NCBI GenBank assembly: GCA_963422465.1
Contig: OY730173.1
Span: forward strand, 3,938,567-4,002,566
DNA from: Lichina pygmaea
Lineage: Eukaryota; Ascomycota; Lichinomycetes; Lichinales; Lichinaceae
Direction of reading: 5' to 3'
DNA length: 64,000 nucleotides
The position numbers were made by a program, and so were the translations under genes. Shown here one piece after another: positions 1,811 to 56,381 of the stretch (positions within the stretch are counted from its first letter, which is position 1; every line of letters starts with the position of its first letter). The notes under the pieces were generated by a model. That model had not been told where the DNA came from. It made no database searches and saw only the letters and a list, made by a program, of their open reading frames with translations.

Positions 1811-1815
1811 GATAT

Positions 1816-2082: not shown

Positions 2083-2084
2083 CT

Positions 2085-2093: not shown

Positions 2094-2140
2094 CTACCCA
2101 ACCATAACACACTTCACCAAGCCATGTTCACATCCTTGTC

Positions 2141-3097: not shown

Positions 3098-3099
3098 TC

Positions 3100-11140: not shown

Positions 11141-11521
11141 TGTGACAAGGCAATGGCAGAGCAGAACTTGAGCCTAACTGATTCAGTAACCTTGACCTGA
11201 CTTGGCTTGAGACTTGAGACTTGGATTGATGTACAAGATGAAAGACAAGGAAGGAAGAAAAAAAGAAAAGAAGAGAAGAAGCTGGGGGAGCAGGAGAAGT
11301 TCTTATAGGCAGGTGATCAGGCAATAGTGTAGCAAACAGGCAACAGTGCAGATGGAACTTCCCGGCAAGGTGCGTGCAGATGGAACTTCCCAGCAAGGTG
11401 CGTGACTTGTGCCAGATATGCAACAAGGCAATAGCAGAGCAAACAGGCAACAGTGCAGATAGAACTTCCCAGCAAGGTGTGTGACTTGTGCCAGATATGC
11501 AACTGGGCCAGAACTGTGATA
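11141..11521 (-). repeat. 3' LTR of D2, enlarged by internal duplication
   Basis: About 381 bp instead of 267 bp. The segment with CAGATGGAACTTCCC occurs three times (near 11349, 11378 and 11456), so the extra length is nested duplication within the LTR. The outer end at 11520-11521 reads GTGATA instead of GTGACA. Confidence 0.75.
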
Positions 11522-11525
11522 TTAC

Positions 11526-14500
11526 CCACCTCCTTCACATGGCAAACTCCTGTGAGCCTCAGGCCACTCGTGGCCGTAGTTCTGTGGCTGTGGTTTCCTT
11601 GGGTATTTCTTATGGAAGTTGTAGATAGTGTCTTTGGTGTTGTCAAGATGCTCAATAGGCTCTTCAGTGGCATCTTCAATTAGCCATCCAGACTATTTGA
11701 CCAGGTACTTGAACTTCTGTCAAGACATTGCTGGCTTGGAGTCAAGGATTTCTTCAACCTGGAACTCTTCATCTGTGTCTTGACCAATGACAGGGCCAGA
11801 GTGTTCATTTGATTGGCCAGGGATAGGATTAGCAGGTGTCAGACATAGAAGGGAAACATGAAAGACAGGGTGGATCTTGAGAGTGTGTGGAAGCTCCAGA
11901 TGGCAGGCACAGCTTCCGACTGTCTTCAACACCTTGAATGGTCTAATCCACTTGTCGTCAAGCTCTTTGCATAGGCGGTGTGTCCTGATGTTCTTGGTAT
12001 TCAGCCAAACAAGATCTCCAGTTTGATAGGACAGTGACAGGACTTGATGTAAATTGGCAGTGTGAGCTTGAGCTTCCTGGGATAGTCGGAGTTCAGCTTG
12101 CAACTGTTCCAGAATCTGTATCATTTCTCCAGAGATTTCTATAGTATCTTGGTTGCAGGCTTCACTTGTGGGTGTGATGCTGAGCTGTGGATGGAACTCT
12201 GTGTTGGCAAAGAACAGTGACATGCCAGAGGAATCAGACTGGGAGTTCTTCTGCGTGAACTCTGCCAGAGGAAGCTATTGGACCCAGTCATCTTGGAGAT
12301 AGTTGACATAGGATCTCAGGTAGTGTTCAAGCTCCTGATTCTCTTGTTCTGTCTGACCATCTGTCTCTGGGTGGTGTCCTGAGGATAGTCGTAGCATGAT
12401 GTCAAGATGGGTACAGAGTGCTTTCCAGAATAAGCTGACAAACTGACCTCCTCTGTCTGAGACAATACTCCTGGGCAAGCCATGGGTACAGACAACAAAC
12501 TGGATGACCGTCCAGACAAGATGCGAGGTTGTCATCTCAGCACATGGCACAAAGTGGTGTTCTTTGGTGAGACAGTCAGTGATGACCCAGATGTGCTTGG
12601 CACCAGGGAAGCAGGCATCTCTTGACTTGGGCAAGTCAGTAATGAAATCTATAGCCAGATCCTGCCAACATTGCTGAGGCACAGAAAGAGACAGCAGCTC
12701 TCCTTGGCGATCACAGGCAGGCTTTGCTCAAGAGTAGACATGACAATTCTGGATGTACTACTGTATGATGTTCACCATCTTTAGCCAATAGTACCAACAA
12801 GACAGAAGATTGTGGGTCTTGGCAATCCCAGTGTGGCCAGCCATTGCTTGGTCATGGACTTCTTGGAACAGGTGTAGGTGTAGCTCATTGTTCTCAGGGA
12901 TCCAGAGTCAGTTCTTGTAGAAGAGGCAGTTATTTTCCAAGCTGCAGTCTGAGAGAGACACTTCTTGACTGTGCCTGACACCATCCCTTAGCATCTGTGA
13001 CACTGTTACCACTGGATCACCTTCAGCAAGGTTGTTATAGGCAGCTTGGATGATGTCTGAAAGAGGTGCAGCATCAGGTTTAGTGTCAACTGGTGCAGCT
13101 TCTGAACATCTCAGGATCTGGATAGACTTGACTTGAACCTCTGAATGTGCAAGATTCTTGGGCTTGAGGACAACTTACTCCATGAAGTCTTGACAGGGAT
13201 CACTGTCTGACAGGAGGTCTTGGGAACATTGAGTGAGGGTGTCAGCCTTGCACTGACTGCCTGGACAGTAGCTGATCTTGAAATTGAAGTGTGACAAGAA
13301 CTCGCTCTAACAGGCTTGACAGCAGGAAAGGCACTTTGACGACATGAAGTACTCCAAGTTCTTGTGATCAGAGATCACCTTGACAGGTTCTGGAGATCCT
13401 TCAAGCTCTGCTCACTATTCTTCAAAGGCACAGACAATTGCCAGCAACTCTTTGTCGTAGATCTTGTAGTTGTATTCTGCTGGCAGGTGGTGGCGTGACA
13501 AGAAGGCAACAGAGTGTAGAACTCCTTCATGGTCTGGCTGTGACAGAACAGCACCAGAGACGTAGTCAGAAGTGTCAGTCTCAACAACACCCTCCTTCTC
13601 CAGATCAAAGTGCTGCAGGATGGGTACAGTTCTGAAGGCCTTCTTGATACTTTCAAACAAGTGCTGCTCTGGGGTTTCCCACTTGAAGGCAACATTCTTC
13701 TTGGTCAGAGCTGTGAGTGGGGATGCAAGCTTGGCAAAGTTTTTGATGAACTAGTGGTAGAAGTTTGCAAAGACAATAAAGCTCTGCACTTCCTTGAGAC
13801 TGGCAGGAAGCTTCCACTCCTTGATGGCATCAGTCTTGGCTGGGTCTATACTCACAGATCTGGGTCAGCCGTCTTCAGTGGCAGACTGAATGATGAGGCC
13901 AAGGTACTTGACTTGATGGACTTCAAAGTCACACTTGGAGATGTTGACTTGCAGGCTTACATCTCGTAGTCAACTGAGAACAAGCTTGACGTGCTTCCGG
14001 TGTTCCTTGAGTGTCTGACTGTAGATAAGGATGTCATCCACATAGGCAGTGCCAAAGACATCAAGGATGTCAGGTCTCAAAACATCATTGATGTAGTTCT
14101 GGAACGTGCTTGGAGTATTGGCAAGACCAAAGAGCATGACAAGGTATTCGTAGAGGCCTGAGCGTGTGCGGAACACAGTCTTCTATTCTTCACCTTCCTC
14201 CATCCGGATACAGTTGAAGGCACCAACAATGTCAAGCTTGGTGTACCACACAGCTTTGCAGAGCTGGTCCAATATCTCCCGGATCAGTGGTAGGGGGTAA
14301 CAGTTCTTGATGGTGATGGTGTTGAGTGCTCTGTAGTCTACACAGAAACACAATCCACCTTCTGGCTTCTTGACAAAAAGGACTGGTGCAGTAGCAGGTG
14401 ATGAAGATGCTTGAATGAAGCTCTTGTTCAGGTTCTCTGTCAGGTACTTCTTGAGAACTTCAAGTTCTTCTCTGCTCATGCTGTACAGAGGTCCAGAGGG

Positions 14501-15290
14501 TGCCTGGGTTCCTGGTTCTATCTTGATCTCGTGGTCAACTCCTGGGTGTAGAGGAGGAAGCTTGTCAGTGTCATCCTTGCTGAAGATGTCCAGGAACTTG
14601 TGGTACTGAGCAGGGAGAAGTGTGGCAGGATCCACACACTTCTTTGACTTCAACACCTGCTCAATATCTCTCAGAGAAACACTGAACACCTGGTGATCTG
14701 GCTTGGCAGCAAGGAGAGAAAATGTGGCAGCATTGATGGGGATTAGTGTAGCAGAAAGGGGCTTGGGATCCTGAGGCTTTCCAGCAGATGTCTTGGCTTC
14801 AAGATCCAAAGAGATTGGATAGCCATTGTTTGACTTGAGGCATGCGGATCAGCAGTGATCTGACTTGAACATGATTGAGGTGTTTGTCCAATCAATATGT
14901 GGCCTGTGCTTCTGGAGCCATGGCATCCCCAGAATCACATCATAGTGAAGACCAGGAGACATAAAGAGAGAGACTTCTTCCTGGTGCACGCCATGTGCTG
15001 TGGTCATGATTGTCTTGGCAAGATGTGTGGTTTGTGATGTCTTGCCATCAAACAATCACAATGTGTGTGGGTAGGGGAGAGGTTCTTGGTGAAGAGATTG
15101 CGCAAAGGAAGCACCAATGCAGCCAAATGCTGAACAGCCAGAGTCAATAAGAGTATTGCACTTGAATTTCCCATCTAGGATACAAGGAAGAAACAAGCAC
15201 TTGCTGTCCAACTGCTGGTCTGGAGACAGATAGCAAACATGGAGATCCTTTTCATGTCCTTGGGCGTGACAATAACCAAGGACTACTTGT
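11526..15290 (-). pseudogene. D2 pol
   Basis: Protease near 15150 (IDSGCSAFG). RT 14183-14809 (LCFCVDYRALNTITIKN) and 13970-14176 with intact YVDD. RNase H 13415-13660 (VVETDTSDYVSGAV), integrase core 12275-12682 (DFITDLPKSRDA, SDRGGQF, TDGQTEQ), and integrase C-terminus plus chromodomain start 11720-12223. All lie in one frame apart from stops such as TAG at the Trp after EGEE. Confidence 0.82.
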
Positions 15291-16239
15291 TTTCTGACTC
15301 TGGAGTAGTCTCAACAGTGGCAGACTTGGTGGTGGTTGTGGTGGTGGCAACAACAGGCATGCTTTTCACTGGACAGAAGGTTGAGATGTGAACTTGGTTC
15401 CCACAGTAGAAGCAGAGGCCTTTGCTTCAGCAATGTTCTCACTCTTCTGGCGTCAGCTTAGAGCGGCTGAGATCCATGGTAGGACTTGGTGGCTGTGGCG
15501 TGAAGGCTGACTTGATGAACCCTGGACACAGAACTGAAGCTCCTGACCGTGGAACTGAGGCTTGGGTGGGAGGTGCTTGACATGGACAGTGAGAGTTGGC
15601 AGAAGTGGCACGCAACTGGTTGTCCTGCAGCTGGCATTCCTCAACAAGCTTCTGATAGCTGATGTCCTTGAGGTTGATGCTGACAAGCTGCTTGGCAAGC
15701 TCTTCAGAGACAGCGCATCAAAGATGACACTTCAAGGTCTTGTTGTTGAAGCCTGTGCGTGGAGCATACTGATTGAACTCTGTGAAGAACTCGGCAAAGG
15801 AACAGTTGGCCTGACGCAAGGTGATGAGCTTTCTCTGAGCTAGGAACTCTGGGTCTGGGTCGGAGAAGGCATTCCGGAGATCTTGGACAATGTTGTGCCA
15901 GTCAATGTACTGGCAAGCTGTGATCTTAGCTGAGATATAGGACTGTGCAGTGCCAGTCGTGCATGAAAAGACGTACACAATCCGCGATGTTTCTGTGGGG
16001 TACCGGTCAGTGTTGAGTGTCATCTTGAGTGACAGTGATGTGATGAAGCTCTCAAGCTTCTCATGCGTGATTTCTGTGTTTCTGCCATCGCCACTGAAGA
16101 TCTCTGGGTCAGCAGTGCGTTCAGACTTGGACTTGGGAGTGGTGTTGGTAGCTTGAATTCGCATGAACTCTGCAAACATGTTGCAAAGGAACTTGTCATT
16201 TCCAGCAACTGGCATAGCTTGGTCTGGTTGTTGAGACAT
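15291..16239 (-). pseudogene. D2 gag
   Basis: Starts MSQQPDQAMPVAGND at 16239 and is open for 173 codons to 15718, where a TGA replaces a codon between CHL and CAVSEELAKQL. It continues in frame to a zinc knuckle (CFYCGNQVHISTFC) near 15400, whose expected Gly-His has become Val-His. It is better preserved than the D1 copy and gives the ancestral codons at D1 stops. Confidence 0.8.
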
Positions 16240-16297
16240 GACAAGGACGTGAACATGGCTTGGTGAAGTGTGTTATGGTTGGGTAGGTCTTTCGTAG

Positions 16298-16564
16298 TGT
16301 GACGAGGCAATGGCAGAGCAGAACTCAAGGCTAACTGATTCAGTAACCTTGACCTGACTTGGCTTGAGACTTGAGACTTGGATTGATGTACAAGACGAAA
16401 GACAAGGAAGGAAAAGAGAAAAGAAGAAGGGAAGAAGCTGGGGGAGCAGGAGAAGTTCTTACAGGCAGGAGATACAGCGGAGCAAGCAGGCAACAGTGCA
16501 GATGGGACTTTTCGGCAAGGTGCGTGACTTGTGCCAGATATGCAACTGGGCCAGAACTGTGACA
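16298..16564 (-). repeat. 5' LTR of D2
   Basis: 267 bp, TGTGACGAGG to CTGTGACA on the plus strand. It carries ACGAAAGAC at 16395-16403, the perfect complement of the primer-binding site at 16287-16295. Confidence 0.88.
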
Positions 16565-17747: not shown

Positions 17748-17799
17748 TCACGTGAAGAAGCATGTGACGATAGTTTTGTGTGCTCAGACAGTATATATT
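17748..17799 (+). promoter_or_regulatory. Proximal promoter of the IMP dehydrogenase gene
   Basis: A palindromic TCACGTGA E-box (17748-17755) lies 37 bases before a TATA element (TATATATT, 17792-17799), which is 120 bases before the ATG. CACGTG is the core bound by fungal bHLH regulators such as Cbf1 and Pho4. Which factor acts here is not visible. Confidence 0.55.
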
Positions 17800-17918
17800 T
17801 CTGCCCTAACCGGTGCCGGAGCTACAACTATCTTCGATCATTACATCAGCTCCATTCGAACCCACACTACGCGAAGAGAAGCCGATCACTGCGTGTCGAC
17901 ATTGGTGCTTCCTTCAAG

Positions 17919-19919
17919 ATGGTCTCAGCAAATGGTGACGGGGCTTACAAGCGGCAATCCAGCAATGTGAATGGCGACGTCCTTGATTATAGTGCTGCAA
18001 GAGAGGTCCTTGGACAAGACTATGCCCGCCGGGATGGTCTCAGTGCCGAGGACCTACTTGACTCCACACGACACGGTGGCCTGGCTTACAATGATTTTCT
18101 CGTGCTGCCCGGATATATTGGTAGGCCGGCGATGCGGGCCAACGGCATGGAGAGACTGCGTTCCCTGTGGCTGACACTGGCTACAGGCTTTCCGGCATCT
18201 GATGTAAATTTGGACACACAGATCACTCGGCGTATCAGCTTGAAGACGCCTCTCATATCTTCTCCAATGGACACTGTCACCGAGCATTCCATGGCGATTC
18301 ACATGGCTTTGCTTGGCGGTTTGGGTGTTGTTCATCACAACTGCTCGGCAGAGGATCAAGCGGAGATGGTCCGGAAGGTCAAGCGGTACGAGAATGGCTT
18401 CATCCTGGATCCTGTCGTCATAAGCGCCAATACCACCGTAGGAGAGGCCAAACAACTGAAAGAGAAGTGGGGCTTTGGCGGCTTTCCAGTGACTGGTGAG
18501 TCAACGAAAAGGATAGAACTGCCGGGAGAATCTTTCAATGATGTTCAACCATTCTACCTTATAACTTTCGTTCAGCCGAAGTGGTCGAATGACCTTGGGG
18601 AATACCATGGAGATTTCTATCTGAGACTTTATTCACCTTTTGAAAGTCGCGTCGTCAACGAGGGTGCAACAGAAGACTGATCGTCTGTCATCACAAACAG
18701 AGAATGGTACACTGCGCTCGAAGCTCATCGGCATGGTCACAAATCGGGACATCCAATTTCACGCAACACTGGATGATCCTGTGACGGCGGTGATGTCTAC
18801 CGACCTTGTGACCGCGCCCTCGGGAACGACCCTGACAGAAGCAAATGAGGTGTTGAGGAAGTCAAAGAAGGGCAAGTTGCCCGTCGTCGATGAGCGGGGC
18901 AACCTGATATCCTTGCTCTCAAGATCAGATTTGATGAAGAACCTCCACTTTCCCTTGGCGTCGAAGCTACCACACTCGAAGCAGCTCATCTGTGCCGCCG
19001 CGATTGGTACCCGTCCGGACGACAGGCTTAGACTGCAGCGATTGGTCGATGCAGGGCTGGACATTGTGGTCTTGGACAGCTCTCAAGGTAACAGCGTGTA
19101 TCAGATTGAGATGATTCGGTATATCAAGGGACAGTATCCCGGACTGGACGTGATTGCCGGCAATGTCGTCACGCGAGACCAAGCGGCCTCACTCATTGTG
19201 GCCGGTGCAGACGGGTTACGGATTGGAATGGGCAGCGGCAGCGCTTGCATCACGCAGGAAGTCATGGCCGTGGGAAGACCTCAGGCAGCTGCCGTCTTCA
19301 ACGTCTCGTCCTTTGCTGCCCGGTTTGGAGTTCCTTGCGTCGCCGACGGAGGTGTTCAGAACATCGGTCACATTGTCAAGGGGCTGGCACTCGGAGCAAC
19401 AACGGTCATGATGGGCGGCTTGCTCGCTGGGACCACCGAATCACCTGGCAATTACTACGTCAGTCGTGAAGGGCAGTTGGTAAAAGCCTATCGCGGCATG
19501 GGCAGCATCGACGCGATGGAAGACAGGAGGGCGGGGGCGGGAGCGGAGGGCAAAGATAGCCAGCGAAGCAATGCGGGAACTGCCCGCTACTTCTCTGAAG
19601 CTGATCGACTGCTTGTCGCCCAAGGTGTCTCAGGGTCCGTTGTCGACCGAGGGTATGTGGAGGATCTGAGTCTATACGAGCACGGTTCCTGTTGGCCTGA
19701 ATGCTTGCTGACGTCAGTATCAGGTCTGTCACCAAGTTTGTGCCGTATCTCATCGCTGGTCTGCAGCACTCGATGCAGGATATTGGCGTCAAGAGCCTTC
19801 ATGGCCTAAGAGAAGACGTCCGGGAGGGTCAAGTGCGGTTCGAGTTCCGCACCACCAGCGCTCAAGTTGAGGGCAATGTGCACGGCTTGCATACCTTCGA
19901 TAAGAAGCTGTACTCCTGA
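17919..19919 (+). CDS. imdA: Inosine-5'-monophosphate dehydrogenase
   Basis: Converts IMP to XMP with NAD+, the first step towards GMP, in the cytosol. Three introns are inferred from GT-AG ends and family continuity: 18121-18186, 18496-18700 and 19653-19723. The four exons total 1659 nt, 552 aa, normal for the family. Visible features: substrate-domain start [25 protein letters not shown] pair (about residues 135-255), NAD-site DSSQGNS (296-301), catalytic loop GSGSACITQ with Cys353, ADGG with Asp386, flap YRGMGS (Tyr434) and the Arg466-Tyr467 dyad. The ATG (CAAGATGG) gives the usual short N-terminus. Odd: the phosphate-binding MMGS motif reads MMGG (Gly410). The frame is intact and CpG-rich, unlike the surrounding elements. 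Intron 1 is 66 bp and stop-free, so retention would insert 22 residues. Confidence in family is very high; exact activity is inferred. Confidence 0.95.
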
Positions 19920-25069: not shown

Positions 25070-25668
25070 TGTTACGACCCAGGGATGGGAGCCACTCATT
25101 TATAGGCAATCAGGCCGCGGGCCAGGCAAGAGGACACCATGGAAGTCAAGTGACCAACCAACAAGGGGTCACGTGACTGTCGAGACACACACGGGAGTCT
25201 TGACACATGATGCATGAAGCATCGAGACAATCTCACCAGTCTTGACGCAGGGTGCATGAAGCATCAAGACAATCTCACCCGTCTCGACGCAGGATGCATG
25301 AAGCATCGAGACAATCTCACCCGTCTCGACGCAGGGTGCATAACATGGTGGGACTGTCAAGACAATCTCACCCGTCTCGACGTCAAGACTGTCGAGACAA
25401 TCTCGATTGTCTTGACAGGCCAGCACTATATAGTCCGGTGATAGTTCCCTTATGGAACAATCGTCTTCAACTCATGTTGTGATCCAGACAACTAGATCTA
25501 CTTCAATACAATCCTTTGTACGAAGCCATTGATCAGGTGTCACCACCACCACGTTCCACCAAACCCCTTCGCACTCCTTGACACTCCTCTCCTGCGAGAA
25601 CCAACCCGCCTTCCACCTCTCGCCCTAATCCTATACTCGGATAGGACGGTACGGTACAGACCGCAACA
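25070..25668 (+). repeat. 5' LTR of A2 (type 1)
   Basis: 599 bp, TGTTACGACC to CCGCAACA. From left: backward TATAAATGAG (about 25094-25103), TCACGTGAC (25168-25176), about three 42 bp tandem units plus a degenerate one (25208-25400), sense TATATAG (25427-25433), then the probable R/U5 part with pyrimidine-rich CACCACCACGTTCC and CTCTCCTGCG. Confidence 0.95.
25427..25433 (+). promoter_or_regulatory. Sense TATA box of the A2 5' LTR
   Basis: TATATAG, conserved in every family A LTR of both types (for example 695, 32771, 44204, 56135). The segment starting 36 bases downstream (GTCTTCAA) is the complement of the primer-binding site, which fits a transcript start close by. Confidence 0.6.
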
Positions 25669-25686: not shown

Positions 25687-26514
25687 ATGAGTACCTCAGG
25701 AGTAACCAACCCCAACTTCCCAGATGGAAAGATTAGCGTCGCCAAGCCAGACCTGTTCTACGGCGAAAGGAACAAGGTTGACGATTGGCTCATGCAACTC
25801 CAAGTCTACTTTCAATTCCAACCAGAGACGAAGCTGCCTAAAGAAAAGTGGCCACTCTTTGCAACCACTTACATGAGAGGCAATGCTTATCGATGGATCA
25901 AGCCCTACGTCAACAAACATCTCTCAGGAAACAGAGACCATGACGGCACATCGGAATGGATGACGAAATGGACGCAATTCAAGGATGAGATCAAAAGGAT
26001 CCTTGGACTATCTAACGAAGATAAAGTGGCTATACAAATGATCCAGCACATCAAGCAACGACGCTCAGCCACAGAGTACACCACACAGTTCAAACAATAC
26101 TCAGTACTGACTGATTGGGACGACGACGCCCTGATGGTCATGTACCGACGTGGACTCAAGGAAAACGTGAAGGATGAAATTACCTTCGACAGACGAGCGG
26201 TCGACACACTGGACGAACTCATCGCACAAGCAATCAACATTGATGACAAACTATTCAAGCGAGCGATGGAGAAACGCCACGACGGAGGATACAGCCGCCC
26301 CGCATGGCATGTGAGCAACCACTACAAGCCACCTAACAAGGCACCGCCACATGACCCATATGGCTATGCACCCATGGAACTGGATGCAGTCCACCACAAG
26401 GGAAGGTTCACGAAGGGAAGGAACAACAAAAAGGGGAAAGCACTGAAGTGCTATGCCTGTGGCAAGCTAGGCCACATGGCGAAAGACTGTCGTTCAAAGA
26501 ACAAGGTGCACTGA
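25687..26514 (+). CDS. A2 Gag (capsid and nucleocapsid)
   Basis: 275 aa, intact. The N-terminal part (MSTSGVTNPNFPDGKI) leads to a retrotransposon Gag/capsid domain with LPKEKWPLFATTYMRGNAYRW (about residues 50-75) and the conserved YTTQFKQYSVLTDWDDDAL (about 137-155). A basic linker GRFTKGRNNKKGKA and one CCHC zinc knuckle, CYACGKLGHMAKDC (about 256-269), follow. It builds the virus-like particle and packages RNA. It stops at a TGA present in every family A copy, after which the same frame continues with further coding-like sequence. That stop may be natural, leaky, or an old CGA-to-TGA change in the master copy. Confidence 0.88.
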   Translation: MSTSGVTNPNFPDGKISVAKPDLFYGERNKVDDWLMQLQVYFQFQPETKLPKEKWPLFATTYMRGNAYRWIKPYVNKHLSGNRDHDGTSEWMTKWTQFKDEIKRILGLSNEDKVAIQMIQHIKQRRSATEYTTQFKQYSVLTDWDDDALMVMYRRGLKENVKDEITFDRRAVDTLDELIAQAINIDDKLFKRAMEKRHDGGYSRPAWHVSNHYKPPNKAPPHDPYGYAPMELDAVHHKGRFTKGRNNKKGKALKCYACGKLGHMAKDCRSKNKVH

Positions 26515-27186
26515 CAGCAACTTAATACACTCGACGGAGACTGGAATGTCATCGAGTGAGAGGACCCACCAGGAGAGGCTCAGCTATCCCTCGAACAATA
26601 GGACGACTACGATCAGATATTGGAAGCAGCCCACCAACTGGCAACATCAGGAGGCAAGGACCTACCAGAACTAACAGGTCAGGACAAGGGACAGGAGCCC
26701 TTAACCACCTCTGATGGGGACCGAGACGAACCCGCGTCTATCAAAGAAGAAATACCACGAGGAAGCTATGCTTACAGCATGGACCCACGAAATCTACGGC
26801 ATGGTGAACTACAGTGGAGGTTTTGCACAAGGCACTACTGCACCTACCACGAACAACTACGAAGGTACGGAGGACATTCACCCTACCACACCACCTGCCA
26901 CAAGCATTGGGTCAATTGCGAGAAGGATGCGTGTGAGATCCATCTTTGGGACAAACACCAACACACCACATTCCCCGAGCACACACATGATTGGCACGAA
27001 CGCCTCATGTTCCTACAGCAAGGCAACAACTACAACTGCTACGTTGACAATTGGCAGTACTGCCTCAAGCCTGGATGTGACAAGCATCAGCAAGACAAAT
27101 TCATGAACAGATTCCTCAGGACTGATGGGAATGGCTGGACCTATTGCCCAGTCAGTGGAAAGACACTTCAATCAGGAAAAGACTGA
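26515..27186 (+). pseudogene. A2 gag-frame extension with triple WX2CX4CX2H motif
   Basis: Same frame as gag, after TGA 26512-26514. Two more stops (TGA 26557-26559, TAG 26599-26601) precede a 188-codon open stretch from 26620. It holds three Trp-x2-Cys-x4-Cys-x2-His motifs: W66-H77, W97-H108 and W145-H156 counted from 26620. A fourth partial WTYC follows. Many fungal gypsy elements have a single W-x2-C-x4-C-x2-H of this kind before the protease; three in tandem with extra histidines is unusual to me. It overlaps the pol frame by 43 nt (27144-27186), consistent with a -1 shift to make Gag-Pol. A zinc-binding role is inferred. Confidence 0.7.
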
Positions 27187-30100
27187 ACTCCCTTGTCAAG
27201 GGGCGACATCGGGAGCTCAACAACATGACCCCTAGCAACGCAAAGCACCTGCGATTGCCTGTGTCACTACACGCCAACACGCCGATACAGACATACACAC
27301 TTGTTGACTCTGGAGCCAGTGGGAACTACATTTCAAGACAACTTTACGATACCCTCAGCACTGGAAGGAGACGCAAGCAGCAGCCCTATCAGCTCGCGAT
27401 GGCAAATAGACAGACAGAGCTAGTCTGCCATGAGACGCAGCCAATGGAAATGGTTACCGGACACCATGCTGAAAGGATCCACCTTGATATCGTCGAGTTG
27501 GCCACTCAGGATATCTACTTGGGGATGCCTTGGCTAAAGAAGCACAACCCAGTTGTTAACTGGAAGACAGGAGTACTCACGTTTAGGAACTGCACTAACA
27601 ACGCAGCTCAGACCTGTTACCAGCCGCAGAAGGCGTGGACAGATGAGGGAAGGAGTCCTCAGTGGAACCTCACCAACAGAAAGGACAACTCTCAAAAGAA
27701 GAGGTCTGCCTCGACAGGCACACCCCAGAACCAGGTGGCCAAACAGTCAGAGATGAAGAGAGAGGAAGTTGTTAACCCTCTGGAGATCCCTGAAGAGTAC
27801 CGACCTGGGTATGATAACCTCTTTCAGGAAGAGACAACGACAGCAGCGTTGCCTAAGCACCAACCTTGGGATCATGAGATCAAGTTGCAACCAGGGATGG
27901 AGCCAGGATTTGGACCAATTTACCAGTTATCAGAGAAAGAGCTCCAAGTACTTCGCGAGTACCTGGAGGAAAACCTGAAAAAGGGTTTCATTCGAGAATC
28001 TCAATTGCCAGCAGGATACCCGATACTATTTGCACCAAAGAAAGACAGAAGTCTTCGACTTTGTGTGGATTACAGGAAACTCAACAACATTACCATCAAG
28101 AATTGATATCCGCTGCCAAATGCGAACAAATTGCGAGACAGGATCAGCCAAGCTACAATCTTTACCAAGCTGGACTTGAAAGGAGCATACAACCTGATAC
28201 GCATGAAAAAAGAAGAAGAATGGAAGACAGCCTTCAGAACCTGATACAGACACTACGAGTATCTGGTTATGCCATTCGGACTCACAAACGCACCAGCAAC
28301 ATGTCAAGCATTGATCAACAACGTCATCAGAGCACACCTGGACCAAACAGCTATCGCCTACCTGGACGACATTCTTGTCTACTCGAACACGCAACAGGAA
28401 CATACCAAACATGTGAAGGATGTTCTACGATGCCTACAAAAGGCAGGGCTCAAGCTCAACCCGAAGAAATGTGAGTTCAACAAACCGGAAGTTGAATTCC
28501 TTGGATACATCATAGGGATTGAAGGGATCAAGATTGACCCTGAGAAAATCAAAGCGATTCAGCAATAGCCAACACCAACATCAGTTAAGGAAGTACAAGC
28601 CTTCCTGGGATTTGCCAACTTCAACTGACAGTTCATCAAGAACTACTCACAGATGGCAACTCCACTGACAGAACTCACGAAGAAGGACGTGGAGTACCGG
28701 TGGACGGAGAGACAACAAAAAGCATTCCAACAGCTCAAGGACACTTGCGCCAAGGAACCAGTTCTCCTCAACTTCAAGACAGGCCAACCGACGCGAATCA
28801 AGACAGACGCTTCAGATCAAGCAGTGGGAGCATGTCTATGCCAACAGGCAGACGGCAAGTGGCACCCAGTTGCCTACTACTCACAAAAAATGACACAAGC
28901 GGAACGAAACTATGATATCCACGATAAAGAGCTACTGGCAGTCGTCAACGCACTCGAACACTGGAGAGTGTACGCGGAAAGCAGTTCCGAACTCACTATT
29001 CTCACAGACCACAAGAATCTGACAACGTTCACGACAACCAAGAAGCTGAACAGACGGCAAGTCAGATGGGCTGAACTCCTAGGGCAACACAAGTTCAAGA
29101 TCTTGTACACCCCTGGACAAGACAATGGGAGAGCAGACACACTAAGCCGACGAAAAGACCACATGGAAGATGATGAACACCAAGGAACGATCTTACAGCA
29201 GGACCAGCAAGGAAACCTGGTACCTCAACCACAGATCAACAAGCTCACGGCAGAAGACACTGAAGAACTAATAAGGAACTACCACGATAATCCAGCACAT
29301 GGTCACCCAGGAATCACCAAAACTACAGACCTGATCCAACAGGCAGGGAACAATGTCATCAATCTCTGACAACATGTCACAAGCTACATCAACAAATGTC
29401 TACTATGCCAGAAAAACAAGCATGGAAGACACAAGCCATATGGAGAAGGACACCCAAACACGATACCGAGAGGCCTGTGGGAAGATGTGTCAATGGACTT
29501 CATCACAAAGCTACCCAAGTCCAAAGACCCAGTCACAGGAATCACCTACAACTTGATTATGGTGATAGTGGACAGATTCACAAAATACCTAATAGCGGTA
29601 CCATTCAAGGAAACCCACACAGCAGAGCAGTTGGGACACCTCCTACTGGACAGATTGGTCAGGGACCACGGAGTTCCAATCACGGTCATTACTGACAGAG
29701 ACAAACTCTTCACATCCAACTACTGGAAAACAATCAGTGCAGCCATGGGAACAAAACCCAAAATGTCTACAGCCTATCACCCACGAACTGACAGCCAGAC
29801 AGAGCGAGCGAACCAAGTCCTGGAGACTTACTTACGGCATTACATCAACAAGACCCACAGCAATTGGGCACAGTTATTACCGGTGGCACAGCTGGCAATC
29901 AACCAGCACAGATCAGACTCAACAAAGGAATCGCCATTTTTTGCCAATTTTGGACAACATGCGAACATCAGGATGCCAAGCAGAGCTTCACCAAACGTGG
30001 AGAAAGCACTCCAACACAACAAGCTCCTACGACAAACGCACACGATGATGAGGCACTACCTTCAAGAGACCTCAGAAAGAATGCAACGCCAAATGGACAA

Positions 30101-30557
30101 GAAATCGAAAATGGCACCTCAGCTAAAGAAGGGGGATAAAGTCTACCTCCTCACAAGAAATTGGAAAATGAAGAAACCAAGAACAAAGAAACTGGACCAT
30201 GTTAAGGTCGGACCATTTTCAATCGAAGAAAGAACTGGACCAGTCAACATCAGACTGCGACTACTGAGAGACGCTCGGGTACACCCAAACTTTCACATCT
30301 CAATGATCGAATTAGCCGACCAGAGCACACCCTTGCAGGAAACATTTCATTACCAACCAGAGGAAGAACAGGAATTCAAGGCCGAACAGATCCTGAAGAG
30401 AAAAGGTCAGCGATACCTTGTCAAGTGGAAAGACTACCCAGACTCGGAAAATACCTGGGAGCCACTCAGGAACCTCGCGAACTGCCAGCTCCTCCTGCAG
30501 CAGTTCCGGCAGGAGCAGGACCGAACAGCTCAGCCTGCAGCGTGGACGTGTCAATGA
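27144..30557 (+). pseudogene. A2 Pol polyprotein (PR-RT-RNase H-IN-chromodomain)
   Basis: 1137 codons in one frame with five in-frame stops and no indel: 28104 (TGA), 28242 (TGA), 28566 (TAG), 28626 (TGA), 29367 (TGA). Four are CGA-to-TGA and one TGG-to-TAG, judged by sister copies and family consensus. Domains: protease LVDSGASGNYIS (27297-27332), RT with [17 protein letters not shown] and AYLDDILVYS (about 28358), RNase H TDASDQAVGA with ELLAVVNALEHWR (about 28800-29130), integrase HHCC finger (HGHPG...CLLCQ), core D-D-E (MDFITKLPKS, ITDRDKLFTS, TERANQ), and chromodomain [19 protein letters not shown] (about 30410-30470). Chromovirus of the Ty3/gypsy group. Its 3' end overlaps the antisense ORF. 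Confidence 0.92.
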
Positions 30558-30966
30558 CTGTCACCGACAAGTCTTCACCATCCGCCTCCATTTCAGCAAC
30601 AAGGCACTGGAGCTTCTTCTTTGCTCGACCCTCAGCACCCTCAAGAACCTTTCGCTTTCGGGACACACAAGCCTGCAGCTCGGCAAGCTGCTCGACAAGA
30701 GCATCCCGCTTGGCCTCATCGACAGCCAAATCCTCGCGAAGGTTATCCCGAGTCATGTTCAGCGACTCCCAAGAAAGTGACACACAGGACTTTCCCCGAC
30801 GAGTGCACTCAGCGCACTTCAACTTATCGTTGTCGTCAGACATTCGGAAGCAGGGCTTGTGGTTCAAAACACAGAATTCACACGGAGCAAGCGACACGAA
30901 GTTATGATCACGGATCTGGGCTGCCAGTTGGTTTCAGTAAGCAGAGGCACGTGATTTTGCAGACAT
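30466..30966 (-). pseudogene. Antisense Zn2Cys6-like/coiled-coil ORF of A2
   Basis: Opposite strand to gag-pol, 167 codons from ATG 30966 (MSAKSRASAY) to TGA 30466-30468. One in-frame TGA at codon 11 has Arg in the type 2 copy at 55853; the rest is open. Cysteines 29, 32, 39, 51, 54, 61 give CX2CX6CX11CX2CX6C, the Gal4-type zinc binuclear cluster spacing, with a basic TRRGK in the second loop. Residues about 65-130 are rich in Leu, Glu, Lys and Arg with heptad-like spacing (LREDLAVDEAKRDALVEQL), suggesting a coiled coil. The tail is Gly/Ser-rich. It overlaps the pol end by 92 nt, tail-to-tail. No signal peptide or membrane segment, so not Env-like. Proposed: nuclear DNA-binding accessory protein, transcribed from the backward TATA in the 3' LTR. 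Confidence 0.7.
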
Positions 30967-31010: not shown

Positions 31011-31609
31011 TGTTACAACCCAGGGATGGGAGCCACTTATTTATAGGCAATCAGGCTGTGGGCCAGGCAAGAGGACACCATGGAAGTCAAGTGACCAACC
31101 AACAAGGGGTCACATGACTGTCGAGACACACACAGGAGTCTCGACGCATGATGCATGAAGCATCAAGACAATCTCACCAGTCTCAACGCAGGGTGCATGA
31201 AGCATCGAGACAATCTCACCCATCTCAACGCAGGATGCATGAAGCATCGAGACAATCTCACCCGTCTCGACGCAGGGTGCATAACATGGTGGGACTGTCG
31301 AGACAATCTCACCTGTCTCGACGTCGAGACTGTCAAGACAATCTCGATTGTCTCGACAGGCCAGCACTATATAGTCCGGCGATAGTTCCCTTATGGAATG
31401 ATTGTCTTCAACTCATGTTGTGATCCAGACAACTAGATCTACTTCAATACAATCCTTTGTACGAAGCCATTGATCAGGTGTCACCACCACCACGTTCCAC
31501 CAAACCCCTTCGCACTCCTTGACACTCCTCTCCTGCGAGAACCAACCCGCCTTCCGCCTCTCGCCCTAATCCTATACTCGGATAGGACAGTACGGTACGG
31601 ACCGCAACA
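31011..31609 (+). repeat. 3' LTR of A2 (type 1)
   Basis: 599 bp, collinear with the 5' LTR and with no indel seen. It starts TGTTACAACC (5' copy CGACC) and ends GCAACA. The differences that I compared are all C/T or G/A, mostly at CpG (for example CGCGGG against TGTGGG, CACGTG against CACATG). Confidence 0.95.
31038..31045 (-). promoter_or_regulatory. Backward TATA in the A2 3' LTR
   Basis: On the minus strand TATAAATA, 79 bases upstream of the antisense ATG at 30966. The same arrangement recurs in A0, A4 and A6, and in type 2 elements with TATAAAG. Function is inferred from position and conservation. Confidence 0.5.
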
Positions 31610-36600: not shown

Positions 36601-37101
36601 ATGTCTGCAAAATCACGTGCCTCTGCTTACTGAAACCAACTGGCAGCCCAGATCTGTGATCATAACTTTGTGTTGCTTGCTCTGTGTGACTTCTGTGTTT
36701 TGAACCACAAGCCCTGCTTCCGAATGTCTGACGACAACGATAAATTGAAGTGCGCTGAATGCACTTGTCGTGGGAAGTCCTGTGTGTCACTTTCTTGAGA
36801 GTCGCTGAACATGACTTGGGATAACCTTCACGAGGATTTGGCTGTTGATGAGGCCAAGCGGGATGCTCTTGTTGAGCAGCTTGCTGAGCTGCAGGCTTGT
36901 GTGTCCTGAAAGTGAAAGGTTCTTGAAGGTGCTGAGAGTCAAGCAAAGAAGAAGCTCCAGTGCCTTGTTGCCGAAATGGAGGCGGATGGTGAAGACTTGT
37001 CAGCGACAGTTATTGATGTGTCCACGCTGCAGGCTGAGCTATTTGGTCCTGCCTCTGCCAGAACTGCTGCAGGAGGAGCTGGCAGTTCGTGAGGTTCCTG
37101 A
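36601..37101 (+). pseudogene. Antisense Zn2Cys6-like ORF of A4
   Basis: 167 codons from ATG 36601 to TGA 37099-37101, opposite to the A4 gag-pol. Six cysteines with the CX2CX6CX11CX2CX6C spacing remain (CDFC, KPC, CAEC, GKSC). Stops at codon 11 and at Trp and Arg codons downstream (near 36798 and 36906) inactivate it. The length is identical to A2 and A1, so no indels have accumulated. Confidence 0.65.
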
Positions 37102-44001: not shown

Positions 44002-44445
44002 TGTTACGACCCAGGAGGAACACAGTCTTTATATACTTACAGAAAGCAGCAGACAGGATACTGGACAGAAGTACCAGACAGTGTGGCACGGGAACCAGTC
44101 ACGTGACCGGCAAGACAAACCAGGGGGTGCTCGCCGCAGCATGCATATGCACGAACAAGTGAGCAAAGTGAGCAGAGCTCACTGTGCTCACGAACTGAGC
44201 ACTATATAGTCTGGTGATAGTTCCCCTATGGAATGATCATCTTCAACTCATGTTGTGATCCAGACAACTAGATCTACTTTAATACAATCCTTTTGTACAA
44301 AGCTGTTGATCAGGTGTCACCACCACCATGTTCCACCAAACCTCTTCGTACTCCTTGACACTCCTCTCCTGCAAGAACCAACCCGCCTTCCACCTCTCAC
44401 CCTAATCCTATACTCGGATAGGACAGTACAGTACAGACTGCAACA
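44002..44445 (+). repeat. 5' LTR of A5 (type 2)
   Basis: 444 bp. Backward TATATAAAGA (44026-44035), TCACGTGACC (44099-44108), one copy of the unit AGTGAGCAAAGTGAGCAGAG, sense TATATAG (44204), then the R/U5 part shared with type 1. Confidence 0.92.
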
Positions 44446-44463
44446 CTTTGAAGACCCTCAAGG

Positions 44464-45107
44464 ATGAGTACCTCAGGAGCAACCAACCCCAACTTCCCAG
44501 ATGGAAAGATTAGCGTTGCCAAGCCAGACCTGTTCTACAGTGAAAGAAACAAGGTTGACGACTGGCTCATGCAACTCCAAGTCTACTTTCAATTCCAACC
44601 AGAGACAAAGCTGCCTAAGGACAAGTGGCCCCTCTTCGCAACCACTTACATGAGAGGCAATGCTTATTGATGGATCAAGCCCTACGTCAACAAACATCTC
44701 TCAGGAAACAGAGACCACAACAGCACAACAGAATAGATGACAAAATAGACGTGATTCAAGGACAAGATTAAAAGGATCCTTGGACTATCTAACAAAGACA
44801 AAGTGGCTATACAGATGATCCAGCACATCAAGCAACAACGCTCAGCCGCAGAGTACACCACGCAGTTCAAACAATACTCAGTACTGACTGACTGGGACAA
44901 CAACACCCTGATAGTCATGTACTGACATGGACTCAAGGAAAACATGAAGGATGAAATCACCTTTGACAGACAAGTGGTTGACACACTGGACAAACTCATC
45001 ACACAAGCAATTGACATTGATGAAAAACTATTCGAGCAAGCAATGGAGAAACACCATGACAGAGGATACAGCTGCCCCGCATAGCATGTGAGCAACCACT
45101 ACAAGCC
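44464..45107 (+). pseudogene. A5 gag, 5' part
   Basis: MSTSGATNPNFPDGK to YMRGNAY open for 69 codons, then TGA for CGA and further stops. Ends at 45107 (SNHYK), where B inserted. The gag continues at 51301 with PPNKAPPH. Confidence 0.8.
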
Positions 45108-45504
45108 TGTTAAAGGCCAGGCTGGGTTCACACAGAAACCGGTACAGTCTGTTGCTTTGTGGGGCGGATTCTAGACAGGGACTCGGTAGAGGAATAGACA
45201 GGTGGGGTAACTCTCCTGTGCTATCGTCTCTGTACGATGGGTTTGTATTGCTTGCATGTGTTCAGCCTGGAGAGCTAATCCCTCTGGGCTCTTTGGGGGT
45301 CTTTATACAGATGCCCCAAGGGGGGGGGTCTCCTCGAGGGGTATCATCCTTTTGCGTGGACGAGCTCCTCGCTTAGCTCCTGCTTGTCCACCGGACGAGC
45401 TCCTCGCTTAGCTCTTGCTTGTCCACCAGATCAGTCAGATGTTGTTCCGCATAACTAACACTTCTCCCTCACTTACCTGGGCTGTTCCAGTCTAGGCCTT
45501 AACA
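45108..45504 (-). repeat. 3' LTR of B
   Basis: 397 bp. Contains two direct repeats of about 37 bp around GACGAGCTCCTCGCTTAGCTC, each able to pair with the flanking GCTTGTCCAC/GTGGACGAGC, and a sense-strand TATAAAG (minus). Confidence 0.92.
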
Positions 45505-45565
45505 CTATCCCCTCCCTCCAAGGGTTCTGTCCCCAGATCCTTTTTGTTCCTGCTCCTCTTTTGCC

Positions 45566-46138
45566 ATAAACCAAAGCCAGACAACTTGAACTTGTTGTTG
45601 TGGTTTTCTCTCTTGTCGTGTTGGCAAAATAGGCAAGGAATCGAAAATCACATGCGGTGCTTGTCGTCGCGACCACGCCAAGTGTGTCGTGAGTTCTGCA
45701 TCGTCTTTTTGTTGTCGGTGTATCAAGAAGGGTTGTCGCTACGACCTTCATCTCTCAGAATCAGAATGGAAGAAGATGGAGCTTGAGTGCAAGCAGCTTG
45801 AGGCTCAGCTGCGGGAGACTGATGACCAACTGTCAAAGCTGCTTCCCTGGCAGATCTGCCTCTGCCGGCAGCTGGTTTGTCTCTCACAGAAGGAGGCTGA
45901 TGCCATCCGTCGTGAGCTGTCAGCCATCAAGGATCAAGAGTCCCTTGATGCTCAGGAACAAGAGGCCCTCCACGTTATCTGCGAACAGGAGGCCTGTCAA
46001 GCTGCTGCTCCACCATCCTTTGAGGACATCTTCTCTTCGGAGGCTTTGGCTTCTCTTGAGCTGTTGTCTCTGTCAGACCTGGTCGCTGCGGATTTGCTTG
46101 GTGGTAATCCACCAGTTTCTGGTTCATTGCAGAGCTGA
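45566..46138 (+). pseudogene. Antisense Zn-cluster/coiled-coil ORF of B
   Basis: Opposite to B gag-pol and between chromodomain and 3' LTR, the same place as in family A. The frame is open from 45590 (after a TGA) to the stop 46136-46138. A likely original start at 45566 reads ATA, one G-to-A change from ATG. Cysteine array CGACRRDHAKC then SSFCCRCIKKGC: CX2CX6CX8CX2CX4C with basic residues (RRDHAK, IKKG), zinc-cluster-like with a shorter last loop. Next comes a Leu/Glu/Lys/Gln segment (SEWKKMELECKQLEAQLRETDD and more), probably a coiled coil, then an acidic Leu/Ser-rich tail (EALASLELLSLSDLVAADLL) reminiscent of an activation region. It overlaps the chromodomain frame by 164 nt. Little sequence identity to the A version; shared position and architecture. 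Confidence 0.65.
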
Positions 46139-49100
46139 AGTTCTCGGTTGGTTCCCACGAATTCTCCTCTTTGTCAAATCCTAACCACTTCACCAGGTAC
46201 TTAGTTTTCCGTCTGTTTCTTTGACTATCCAGGATTCTTTCGACATCGTACTCTTCTTCGTTGTCCTCGAAGTTCCATTCTGTTTCAACCTCCGCGTCGC
46301 TGGGTGCTGGTTCAAGCAGCGAGACGTGGAATACTTGGTGTATCCTTGCTTTTCGTGGCAGTCTCAGTTGATAGTTGACCTTCCCAGTGCGCTTCTCAAT
46401 TTCGAATGGTCTGATTTGTACATGGTCCAGCTTTTTGCTTGGTCACTTCAAGCGCAGGTTTTTTGTTGATAGGTAGACCTTATCCCCCCTTTCCAGGGTT
46501 GGTCCCTTCAACCTTTTGTCATGTAATCGGTGGGCGGTGGTGTTCTGGGCACGGTCGATCATTGTTTTCAGCATCTCGTGCATAGCAGCAAGTTTGCTAA
46601 CATCGACAACATTGCCTCCTGCTGTTGCCTGCTATCAGGGGTTTCTTCCGTAGTTCGCAAAGAACAGTGTTGTCCCTGTCACACTGTGTTGCTGGTTGTT
46701 GTACGCAAACTGGGCTATTGGTAGCAGTTCCACCCAGTTGTCCTGCTGGTGGTTGATGTAGTGTTGTAGATACTGCTCTATTGTCTGGTTTGTCTGCTCA
46801 GTTTGTCTGTCGGTTTGTGGGTGGTAGGCTGTTGACATCCTTGTATCAATGCCAAGTTGCCTTGTCCATGTGTTCCAGAATTTCGAGGTGAAGAGTTTGT
46901 CTTGATCTGAGATGATTGTCTTTGGTAGCCCTTGGTGGCTTACCAGCTCTCTGAGTAGAACACTCGTGAGTTTGTTCACAGTTCCTGACTCTTTCCACAG
47001 GACCAGGTGGGTGTATTTGGTGAGTTTGTCAACAACCACCAAAATACTATCGTATACCACCTTTGTTGCTGGGTCTGTTGACTTTGGCAACTTGACCACA
47101 AAATCCATCGTGATAGTTTCCCATAGTGCCTCAGGTAGGTCCATCTGCTGTGCCTGCCCGTAGGGCTTATGCCTTGATGGTTTGTTCTTCGCGCACTGTT
47201 CACAGTTGTGGATGAACTCTGTCACCTTGCGCTTCATTCTGTCAAAGTGGTAGTTCCTTTGGATTTTCTCCAAGGTTTTATCTCACCCGGGGTGTCTGTG
47301 CAAAGGCCTGTCATGGTGCCTCCGGATCACCTCCTCTTGTGCTCTTTCTGGCATAATTTTCTTTTTGTTTGCTGTCTTGTGGCCAAGGGTAAGGAGTGGA
47401 CCCTTTGTTTCTGTTGTTGCCAGTTGGGGTTGGGCATAGACCAAGGTTTGTCCTTTTGTCACTAGGATTGGGTGTTCCTCTGTTGTTTTCTCATCCATCA
47501 GGTCTGGTCGCCTGCTGAGGGTGTCTGCTTGAGCATTCTCAGTGCTCTTCCAGTAGAGAATTTGGAAGTTGTATAATGCTAACAACTCTGCCCATCAAAC
47601 TTGTTGTCAGTTTAGCTTCTTCGTCGTTGTGAAGTAAGCTAAGTTTTTGTGGTCTGAGTACATGTCTATTGTGTATTTTGCCCCCTCCAAGTAAGGCCTC
47701 CATTCTTGGAATACGTCGACGATTGCTAACAACTTTTTGTTGTGAACATCATATCTCAGTTCTGGGCCAGAGAACTTTCTCGATCAGTATGCGACAGGGT
47801 GTAAGTGGTTGTCGGTGTCTGGTTGACACAAGCAGGATCCCAATGCTTGGTCCGAGGCATCAGTCTCCAGAATGATCCTCTTCTCAGAATCAAATGATGC
47901 CAAAATAGGTGCGGAGATGAATTTATCCTTCAACTCCTGGAAGACTGCTTGTTGGCTCTCCCCCCACCTGAAAGATTTGTTCTTTCTGGTTAACTCTGTC
48001 AAGGCTGCTGCTGTTCTTGAGTAGTCCTTGATGAATTGTCGGTAGAAGTTTGCAAACCCTAGGAAGGATTGTACTTCTTTGAGGTTTTTGGGTGTTGGCC
48101 AGTCTTGTACTGCTGCCGTCTTCGTGTTGTCTATTCAGATTCCTTCTGTTGTCAGGATCAACCCCAAATATTCTACTTCCTTTGTGTGGAAAACACTTTT
48201 ATCCAGGCGTAACCTCATCCCTGCTCTCTGGAGCGCATGTAGGATCTTTTTGACATGCTGTCTGTGCTCCTCCAAGGTTCCATTGGTGTATACCAAGACG
48301 TCGTTGATATAAGCGGTGATAAATATGTCCAGGTATTGTCGGAGGACAGTGTTAATAAGTGATTGGAATGTCGCCGGTGCATTCGTAAGGCTGAATAGCA
48401 TCACAGTATACTTGTAGTGCCTGTACCTCGTACAAAAGGCTGTCTTCCATTCTTCACCGTCTTTCATCCTAACCAGGTTGAAAGCACCTTGAATGTTGAA
48501 CTTGGTAAACTATTTGGCTCCTTGGATCTGGTCTTGGATTTCTGATATCAATGGCAGTGGGTAGTGGTTTTTCACTGTAATCACATTTAGCTGCCGATAA
48601 TCAACACACAGTCGAAGTTTACTGTCTTTCTTTGGCACAAACAATATCAGGTATCCAGCCGGTGATGTTGAAGGTCTTATGAACTCTTTCGCTAGGTTCT
48701 TGTCCAGGTAGTCTCTCAGGGCCTCAAGCTCTTTTGCTGACAGAGTGTAGATAGAGCTGTGTGTGGGTTTTTTTCCATCTTCCAGCAGAATCTTGTGGTC
48801 CCACTCCTGATGTTCTGGTAGCGTCGCGATCGCTGTTTCTTTGAACATCTCCTGGTATTCTTTATACTCACTTGGCAACTGCGGTGCCTGAGTCTCGCCC
48901 ACGGCATCTTGCGTGGTGCAAAGTTGTTGTGTTCGGGGTTTCATCCAGGCCACACAGGCCTCCCCACACTGGTGGTATCTCTTCCACCGTGTCAGTGAGA
49001 TTTCTTTAATTGTCACCCCTGGTTCTGACGTGACCAGTGTCTCATCCAGAAAGACTAGTTGCCTTCTTTTCCAGTCAATCCTTGGGTTTTGTTTTTCCAA

Positions 49101-49571
49101 CCACGGAAGTCCCAATATAACTTTGTGTGGTATCCAGACCAAGTTGAATTCTTCTGTTCTGATCGTCATGCCATGGACACTCAGTCTCAGACTCTTAGTC
49201 TCCTTTGTCACTCATCCCTTGTCTTTGGAGAGTGGTGTTCCGTCCACTACCATCAACTAGTAGGGGTCTCTCTTGCCTTGGACTAGAACCTTGTTTCTTC
49301 TGGCAAAGCTTTCTGACATGAAGTTGCCAGTCGCACCAGAGTCAATCATGGCCTTAGCCAACCGCCCATTGACTCTGATCTTGATGTGAAAGTGCAGGCT
49401 GCAGGCTGTTGTGTCAAGACTTGGCTTGACTCCTTCCTCCCGGGGTGTTGTCTTGCCTGCTCTTCCAACCCCGGTTTTGAAGAGTGCTGCTAGTTTTTTG
49501 AGCTGCCTAGGCCCTGGGCCTGACGCTCTACCGCGTGTTGTTTGCATTGTGTGGTGGTGCATCATTCCCAC
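45975..49571 (-). pseudogene. B pol
   Basis: Protease AMIDSGATGNF (about 49340). RT 48510-49211 ([17 protein letters not shown]) and 48135-48467 with the catalytic motif changed to YIND. RNase H 47784-48002 (ETDASDQALGSCLC), connection 47283-47585, integrase 46635-47273 (zinc-binding HNCEQCAKNK, core MDFVVKLPKS, ISDQDKLFTS, TDRQTEQTNQ), and chromodomain at 45975-46193 (MKWLGFDKEENSWEPTENF). All in one frame; stops at the ends of these segments are transitions. Confidence 0.85.
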
Positions 49572-49599
49572 AGGTCTTGGTTACAGTCATCAGCAATGT

Positions 49600-50860: not shown

Positions 50861-50898
50861 TGTATCAAGTCAGTGTCCTGTACGTTAGAGACTGAAAC

Positions 50899-51295: not shown

Positions 51296-51300
51296 AAGCC

Positions 51301-52156: not shown

Positions 52157-52194
52157 ACTCCCTTGTCAAGGGGCAACATTGGGAGCTTAACAAC

Positions 52195-55853: not shown

Positions 55854-55896
55854 GACCAGATTTCATCAAGATGATGAAAGATAGAGAGAAGGATAG

Positions 55897-56376: not shown

Positions 56377-56381
56377 ACAAT

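Follow-up and report, generated by a model that had tools for sequence, protein, structure and literature searches.

An antisense gene with a zinc-cluster-like cysteine pattern appears to be exchanged together with adjacent U3 repeats among Ty3/gypsy elements of Lichina pygmaea

The brtn gene of Boty-like retrotransposons is reportedly the subject of a study by Zhao et al. (2011, Virology 417:248). In the passages that deal with it, brtn is an antisense gene carried by Boty-like Ty3/gypsy elements of Botrytis cinerea (PMC7264820, PMC8365987, PMC4227169). Comparable antisense ORFs without known function, the aORF-3R of Grande (gene23), RIRE2 and Retand, have been reviewed for plants, and for Grande an antisense promoter of its own and a nuclear protein were reported (PMC7264820). 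A passage of the same review also cites an antisense promoter in the 3' LTR of HTLV (PMC7264820). An antisense accessory gene is thus not new as a kind, because Boty brtn and plant Grande are known, and the novelty for fungal gypsy elements that the sequence-only reading had attached to the gene described here falls away in view of what these passages say of brtn. Two further systems are relevant by analogy: the antisense gene product HBZ of HTLV-1 is a coiled-coil (bZIP) regulator, and in the immunity regions of lambdoid phages a regulator gene and its adjacent sites are swapped as a unit between similar backbones.

The window analyzed here, a stretch of 64,000 nt of the L. pygmaea genome (32.47 Mb, 8 contigs), contains several Ty3/gypsy copies, and Retrotrans_gag, zf-CCHC, rve and Chromo all score above the Pfam cut-off. 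One element of family A has its 5' LTR at 25070-25668 (plus strand; end set by register with the 3' LTR), a gag with CCHC knuckle at 25687-26514 (plus; ORF list and Pfam), the 3' part of pol with integrase core, SH3-like domain and chromodomain at 29487-30557 (plus; ORF list and Pfam) and its 3' LTR at 31011-31609 (plus; end read from the sequence), which is the order of domains between LTRs typical of Ty3/gypsy chromoviruses. The antisense gene (30466-30966, minus) runs opposite to pol and is placed between chromodomain and 3' LTR, whose U3 is directly upstream of it; its last ~92 nt, at its 3' end, overlap the end of pol, and its ATG is ~45 nt from the LTR. It had no match in a plasmid collection. 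As an antisense frame between pol and the 3' LTR that is kept among copies and is under selection, it qualifies as an aORF-3R, and it shares position, orientation and conservation among copies with the plant examples, for which, in contrast, the review gives no clear similarity to known proteins and mentions no exchange with U3 (PMC7264820). With Boty brtn, compared by description only, it shares the place before the 3' LTR of a Ty3/gypsy element, whereas the passages on brtn mention neither a zinc cluster nor cassette exchange.

The sequence-only reading had taken 30466-30966 for a 167-codon frame with the spacing C-X2-C-X6-C-X11-C-X2-C-X6-C and a heptad-rich segment. The translations indeed show this spacing and, behind it, a helix-rich segment, but this copy is not one open frame of 167 codons because codon 11 is a stop, which is common to the copies at 30466, 36601 and 62192; it represents the type 1 (A1) cassette, which encodes the six-cysteine cluster, a long helix and a C-terminal tail. 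The proposed recurrence at the same place was likewise borne out, for type 1 at 36601-37101 (plus), at 62192-62692 (minus) and in part at 1-344 (minus), and for type 2 (A2) at 1146-1646 (plus) and approximately 55374-55853 (minus), as was the unbroken N-terminal half of the type 2 copies at 1146 and 55853. Among 53 full-length type 1 copies, the six-cysteine motif was found in 51, an unbroken frame in 23 and frame, ATG and motif together in 21; the corresponding numbers for 24 full-length type 2 copies are 16, 3 and 3. These copies are those of the window plus the best genome matches and no random sample, so that the fractions are not genome-wide rates. By eye count, 37 of the best 150 genome protein matches are free of stops over residues 12-166 of the type 1 gene. 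Loss of the frame from intact copies had been named beforehand as evidence against the gene; unbroken copies were found.

A second lineage, represented in the window by family B (45107 to ~51300), carries an antisense gene at the same place. The window copy (45566-46138, plus, with pol on the minus strand; 3' LTR at 45107-45506, minus, inner end approximate) is damaged: its start codon is lost, it contains an early stop, and the last cluster cysteine is absent. Better preserved B copies and their relatives show the pattern CX2CX6CX8CX2CX6C followed by a long helix and an acidic-hydrophobic tail, and 115 of the best 150 genome matches are stop-free by eye count over the aligned 141-149 residues, which start beyond the third cluster cysteine. 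The protein of a third family, C, is ~62% identical to that of B; here 53 of 61 matches with at least 85% identity are stop-free (eye count). The complete six-cysteine motif is present in 10 of 12 B/C loci, the exceptions being the window copy (L025) and L031. A further locus, L101, is nearest to C and heavily decayed, and is therefore not clearly a new cassette.

The antisense frame is a protein gene under purifying selection in both lineages. Between type 1 and type 2, five pairs compared outside the pol overlap gave a pS of 0.70-0.76 and a pN of 0.18-0.19, and omega was 0.07-0.11 in the three pairs in which it could be computed (pS not saturated). Opposite-strand frame -1 showed an omega of 0.18-0.19 and the other four frames of 1.2-2.6. 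With transversions only, the antisense frame had an omega of 0.30-0.32, frame -1 of 0.53-0.55 and the other four of at least 1.07; for the pair L018/L090 the value of 0.301 compares with a null mean of 1.09, and none of 2000 random placements was as low. Between B and C (four pairs, 156 codons), omega in the antisense frame was 0.19-0.24, or 0.41-0.45 with transversions only, compared to 0.31-0.38 (transversions only 0.88-0.96) in frame -1 and 1.1-2.5 in the remaining frames, with transversion-only values of at least 0.88 in all non-antisense frames; random placements were as low in 2, 0, 0 and 0 of 1000 cases for the four pairs. Inclusion of the open leader gave 0.26-0.33 and, for transversions, 0.51-0.62. 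The pol frame, used as a yardstick, had an omega of 0.13-0.19 between A1 and A2 (four pairs with long flanks). Where antisense gene and pol overlap there are only 2 transversions in 93 nt versus 54-56 in 408 nt outside, as double coding would predict. A chance open frame is ruled out by this frame-specific selection, and the mirror frame on the sense strand is rejected as a real gene since selection on it is weaker and it contains two stops in L018 and four in L089.

Transitions between the fetched A1, B and C copies are mostly of the CpG and not the CpA type (0.77, 0.61 and 0.71 in the three sets), and the CpG share of transitions in A1 pol is 0.37; the decay of these elements is thus more in keeping with CpG methylation or CpG-type RIP than with classic RIP. 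The key comparisons were for this reason also made on transversions alone, which keeps decay by methylation or RIP out of omega, and an artefact of decay is discarded as their source. The purifying selection that the sequence-only reading had made the touchstone of its gene survives the removal of all transitions, in A as well as in B/C.

A six-cysteine spacing of this kind is characteristic of the Gal4-type zinc clusters of fungi, most of which belong to host transcription factors. A profile search reached 235 relatives, and among the best 120 of these one comes from a metagenome-assembled genome of Watsoniomyces (Lichinomycetes, Ascomycota). In an alignment of 21 sequences, inspected by eye, every one of the 21 rows has the last three cysteines, each of the 15 whose sequence extends to the first three has those as well, and the Gal4-type spacing CX2CX6C...CX2CX6C is conserved among the relatives. 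The Pfam family Zn_clus (PF00172) scored 15.6, 14.9 and 14.2 bits with proteins P0190, P0119 and P0138 at a cut-off of 21; no protein scanned exceeded it (best 15.6 bits), the window's own translations had no Zn_clus match in Pfam, and unrelated Pfam families reached similar scores. All matches in an NCBIfam scan were far below cut-off. Weak DUF3716 matches, also below cut-off, were seen for P0001, P0187 and P0190, and relative P0168 bears the precomputed Pfam label PF27583.1. When PDB sequences were searched with P0119, all six matches up to an E-value of 10 were GAL4 or HAP1/CYP1 (E 0.088-0.9). Beyond P0119 such searches were weak and mixed: LEU3, CYP1, HAP1 and LAC9 made up 5 of 11 matches with profile A2, LEU3 two of six with profile A4 and GAL4 one of eight with profile A3, and no zinc cluster was among the matches of profile A1, P0190 or P0138. 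AlphaFold2 predicts for the A protein a short helix behind each CxxC and then a helix of 68 residues (50-117; mean pLDDT 79.9), and for the C protein, in a model of modest confidence (mean pLDDT 68.9), again a short helix behind each CxxC, followed by a helix of 71 residues (63-133). The A and B/C profiles align over the full set of six cysteines with E 1.1e-4 and a probability of 57%; in a shallower comparison the values were E 0.006 and 6%.

Judged from these sequence features, the antisense product is probably a small, Zn2Cys6-like, dimeric protein, and the architecture of cluster plus helix is supported, while membership in PF00172 is not established. It resembles Gal4-type Zn2Cys6 factors (PF00172) in the six-cysteine spacing, the acidic tail and, in the predicted structures, the helix behind each CxxC and the subsequent long helix; it differs from them in its Pfam score below cut-off, its very small size and its being encoded by a retrotransposon. 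A1 and A2 sequences have few basic residues between the second and third cysteine. We infer that the protein binds zinc and dimerizes. By analogy, an antisense gene at the 3' end that is putatively driven from the 3' LTR and encodes a putative coiled-coil regulator recalls HBZ of HTLV-1, but HBZ is a bZIP protein of an unrelated element, in contrast to the six-cysteine cluster seen here, and the Pfam scans gave no bZIP match.

The antisense genes appear to have a history different from that of the elements which carry them. In two pairs of types 1 and 2, pol carries 0-1 transversions per 100 nt; the density rises to 3-6 in the 300 nt around the pol end (3-4 in the last 200 nt of pol ahead of the gene) and to 11-28 in the remainder of the antisense gene and U3, and falls back to 0-1 in the 200 nt that start at the sense TATA box. 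Two pairs of B and C behave similarly, with 0-1 transversions per 100 nt within pol, 4 in the 100 nt directly preceding the gene, 6-20 across gene and U3, and 0 in R-U5. These comparisons cover 1.1-1.4 kb of 3' pol and, in one window pair, most of gag-pol: between the type 1 element at 25070 and the type 2 element at ~51-57 kb, gag-pol differs by 0-4 transversions per 250 nt from 26250 to 30000, followed beyond 30000 by 23 and 37 transversions in 295 and 249 aligned nt, and the alignable parts of the LTRs differ by 0-1. Rapid evolution of the antisense protein does not account for its low identity between types, as synonymous sites are near saturation in the gene (pS 0.70-0.76) and not in pol (~0.16-0.23, four pairs). 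The divergence of the genes must therefore be far older than that of pol, and the A1/A2 and B/C elements look like recombinants rather than carriers of fast-evolving genes.

The converse situation, one cassette on different backbones, is found in family B. The antisense genes of eight B copies differ by 0-1 transversions in 416-506 nt, yet they sit on two pol backbones that are 68-72 transversions apart in 1018-1091 nt; L026, L027 and L032 have a C-type backbone (0 transversions) and the other five the second one. In all four C copies compared, pol is free of transversions relative to one of the two B backbones, and six further C copies are 97.7-98.8% identical to the first backbone versus 79-80% to the other. 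Over the stretch that begins 100 nt before the gene and extends as far as the sense TATA region, L026 differs from L025 or L030 by 0-1 transversions in total, whereas pol shows 2-14 per 100 nt and the 100-nt bin of R-U5 has 9. When pol of family A was clustered at 2 transversions per 100 nt, 49 of 50 A1 and 17 of 22 A2 copies fell into one cluster; at 0.45, four A2 copies were placed inside two clusters holding 47 A1 copies, 12 A2 copies formed a cluster of their own, and the rest were small groups, some of them at pol distances large enough to hint at a flank that is broken or foreign. L088, which is of type A2, shows no pol transversion relative to an A1 copy. The repeat type in U3 matched the gene type in 86 of 89 copies, the other three having no repeat match, with no mismatch. 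Cassette mosaicism is thus present in both lineages, the gene is co-inherited with the U3 repeats in the copies examined, and the two behave as one exchangeable module, given the step relative to pol and R-U5 and the occurrence of cassette B on two backbones. Since gene and U3 are adjacent, co-inheritance is no proof of their interaction.

The explanation we favor, with a probability of roughly 0.55, is that the antisense gene encodes a zinc-cluster-type dimeric regulator of the element's own LTR and forms with U3 an exchangeable specificity cassette. In this chromovirus lineage, the gene between chromodomain and 3' LTR would be transcribed inward from an antisense promoter in the U3 of the 3' LTR, and its product, with an N-terminal Zn2Cys6-type cluster, a long dimerization helix and an acidic C-terminal tail, would enter the nucleus and bind as a dimer to the U3 tandem repeats of the element that encodes it. 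Bound there, it would tune LTR transcription, with activation slightly likelier than repression; the acidic-hydrophobic tail speaks for the former, the likeness to immunity regions for the latter. Indirect support for a role in the control of LTR transcription comes from the exchange of gene and U3 as a pair and from the antisense TATA box in the family A LTR. The sequence-only reading had likewise proposed a DNA-binding regulator encoded by the element: purifying selection and the Gal4-like cysteine pattern agree with this, the Zn_clus score below cut-off does not. In the usual route of reverse transcription, strong-stop DNA is transferred at R. The cassette might be passed between backbones during this process, with one boundary set by the obligatory strand transfer at R and the other by a template switch close to where pol ends: minus strong-stop DNA would move to a second RNA at R, copy its U3 and antisense gene, and switch back near the pol end. 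We infer U3 binding, the direction of regulation and the origin by template switching. Acquiring a different cassette would release an element from the control exerted by those already resident.

Alternatively, the antisense protein might act elsewhere than at U3, for example in nuclear import of the pre-integration complex, integration targeting or on chromatin, with the cassette varying simply because the 3' end recombines. Such roles have been suggested for plant antisense ORFs, and the Grande GENE23 protein is nuclear (PMC7264820); moreover, adjacency makes a joint exchange of gene and U3 likely regardless of function. We nevertheless consider this unlikely, as it leaves unexplained why U3 has diverged together with the gene while 3' pol, including the integrase, and R-U5 are near-identical.

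For the favored reading, an LTR regulator in a cassette with U3, the promoter regions are of particular interest. A TATAWA motif on the antisense strand is supported in family A: the 53 type 1 copies gave 39 occurrences at position -79 relative to the ATG and 11 at -80 (31040-31045, minus, 79 nt upstream, in the window copy), and in type 2 it is found at -75 in 23 of 24 copies, within otherwise diverged U3 sequence. About 300 nt deeper in the LTR is the sense TATA box (31368-31373, plus), close to which types 1 and 2 become nearly identical again. In B and C, the vicinity of the gene shows no antisense TATA. Between the two promoters, or promoter regions, lies a tandem repeat that is particular to each cassette, with units of ~42 nt in A1, 50 in A2, 35 in B and 69 in C; of the nine LTRs examined, eight hold 2.0 to 5.1 copies, and none was found in L014. 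In the window A1 element, ~42-nt units with GTCTCGA / TCGAGAC arms, candidate binding sites, occupy 31137-31280 (plus), limits which are taken from the register with locus L018 and not from a scan of this copy. Inverted arms inside the repeat units (GTCTCGA, GTGAGC, GGACGAGC, TGGACGAG) are not significant against shuffles for A1 and A2; for B and C they are so by 6-mer count only (32 and 13 of 1000 shuffles) and not by the longest arm (207 and 63 of 1000). We therefore do not regard them as proof of dimer sites. LTR repeats are also not specific to elements with the antisense gene, as they occur without such a gene in element D, whose repeat unit, a 72-nt stretch of approximate length and last base, served as a crude control. 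Because of both points, the U3 repeats are regarded as putative binding sites.

The repeats might instead be sites for host factors, in which case cassette diversity would reflect escape from repression of the promoter by the host, and the antisense protein would ride along or counter silencing. The repeats of element D, whose LTR is accompanied by no antisense ORF of at least 120 aa, fit this idea, and the predominance of CpG-type transitions suggests that the host modifies these elements. Selection on the protein and its divergence alongside U3 demand a role at the protein level too, which makes this explanation distinctly unlikely. That antisense RNA rather than protein is the effector, through dsRNA, small RNAs or transcriptional interference, is very improbable: the antisense TATA box of the family A LTR and the antisense RNA roles discussed in PMC7264820 would be in line with it, but the frame-specific synonymous excess calls for a protein and most of the gene lies outside the pol overlap.

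If the reading as a U3-directed regulator is correct, the arrangement would resemble the immunity regions of lambdoid phages in that a regulator gene and adjacent sites are exchanged as a unit; the carrier is a retrotransposon and no member of that group, and recognition of the sites by the regulator is only putative here. More tentatively, and with less than even odds, LTR retrotransposons might carry immunity-like modules in general, in which an antisense regulator and its cognate U3 sites diversify and swap together on a shared gag-pol by transfer at R and a switch at the pol end; elements with different modules would then be regulated independently within one genome (heteroimmunity). What appears to be new is the zinc-cluster-like product, the frame-specific selection in two lineages and the exchange of gene and U3 as a module; joint exchange of an antisense gene and U3 was absent from the titles and abstract openings among the matches listed, a search mostly outside the subscription literature. 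As far as compared, the elements constitute a natural experiment, differing chiefly in the antisense gene and the adjacent promoter repeats, and the function of the gene is therefore directly testable by cassette swaps in reporters. The same contrast suggests that the pressure to diversify falls on the self-regulation of these elements and not on their enzymes.

Several other features of the window were observed. Family D is another gypsy family (1813-7125 and 11141-16562) with repeats in its LTR, and the ORF list shows no antisense ORF of at least 120 aa between its pol and 3' LTR. A host gene, by its translation apparently an IMP dehydrogenase, is split over frames at 17778-19809. At 54457-55497, in the type 2 element, no counterpart exists for ~80 nt of pol near the chromodomain, so that part of the chromodomain is apparently absent from this copy. 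The last base of the window is also the last base of its contig, and because of this position at the contig end the window copies are perhaps subtelomeric. Finally, the family B element (45107-51300) is apparently nested in the gag of a type 2 A element (~44400-56900): A-type gag-like sequence ends near 45106, and gag-pol continues past the B 5' LTR.
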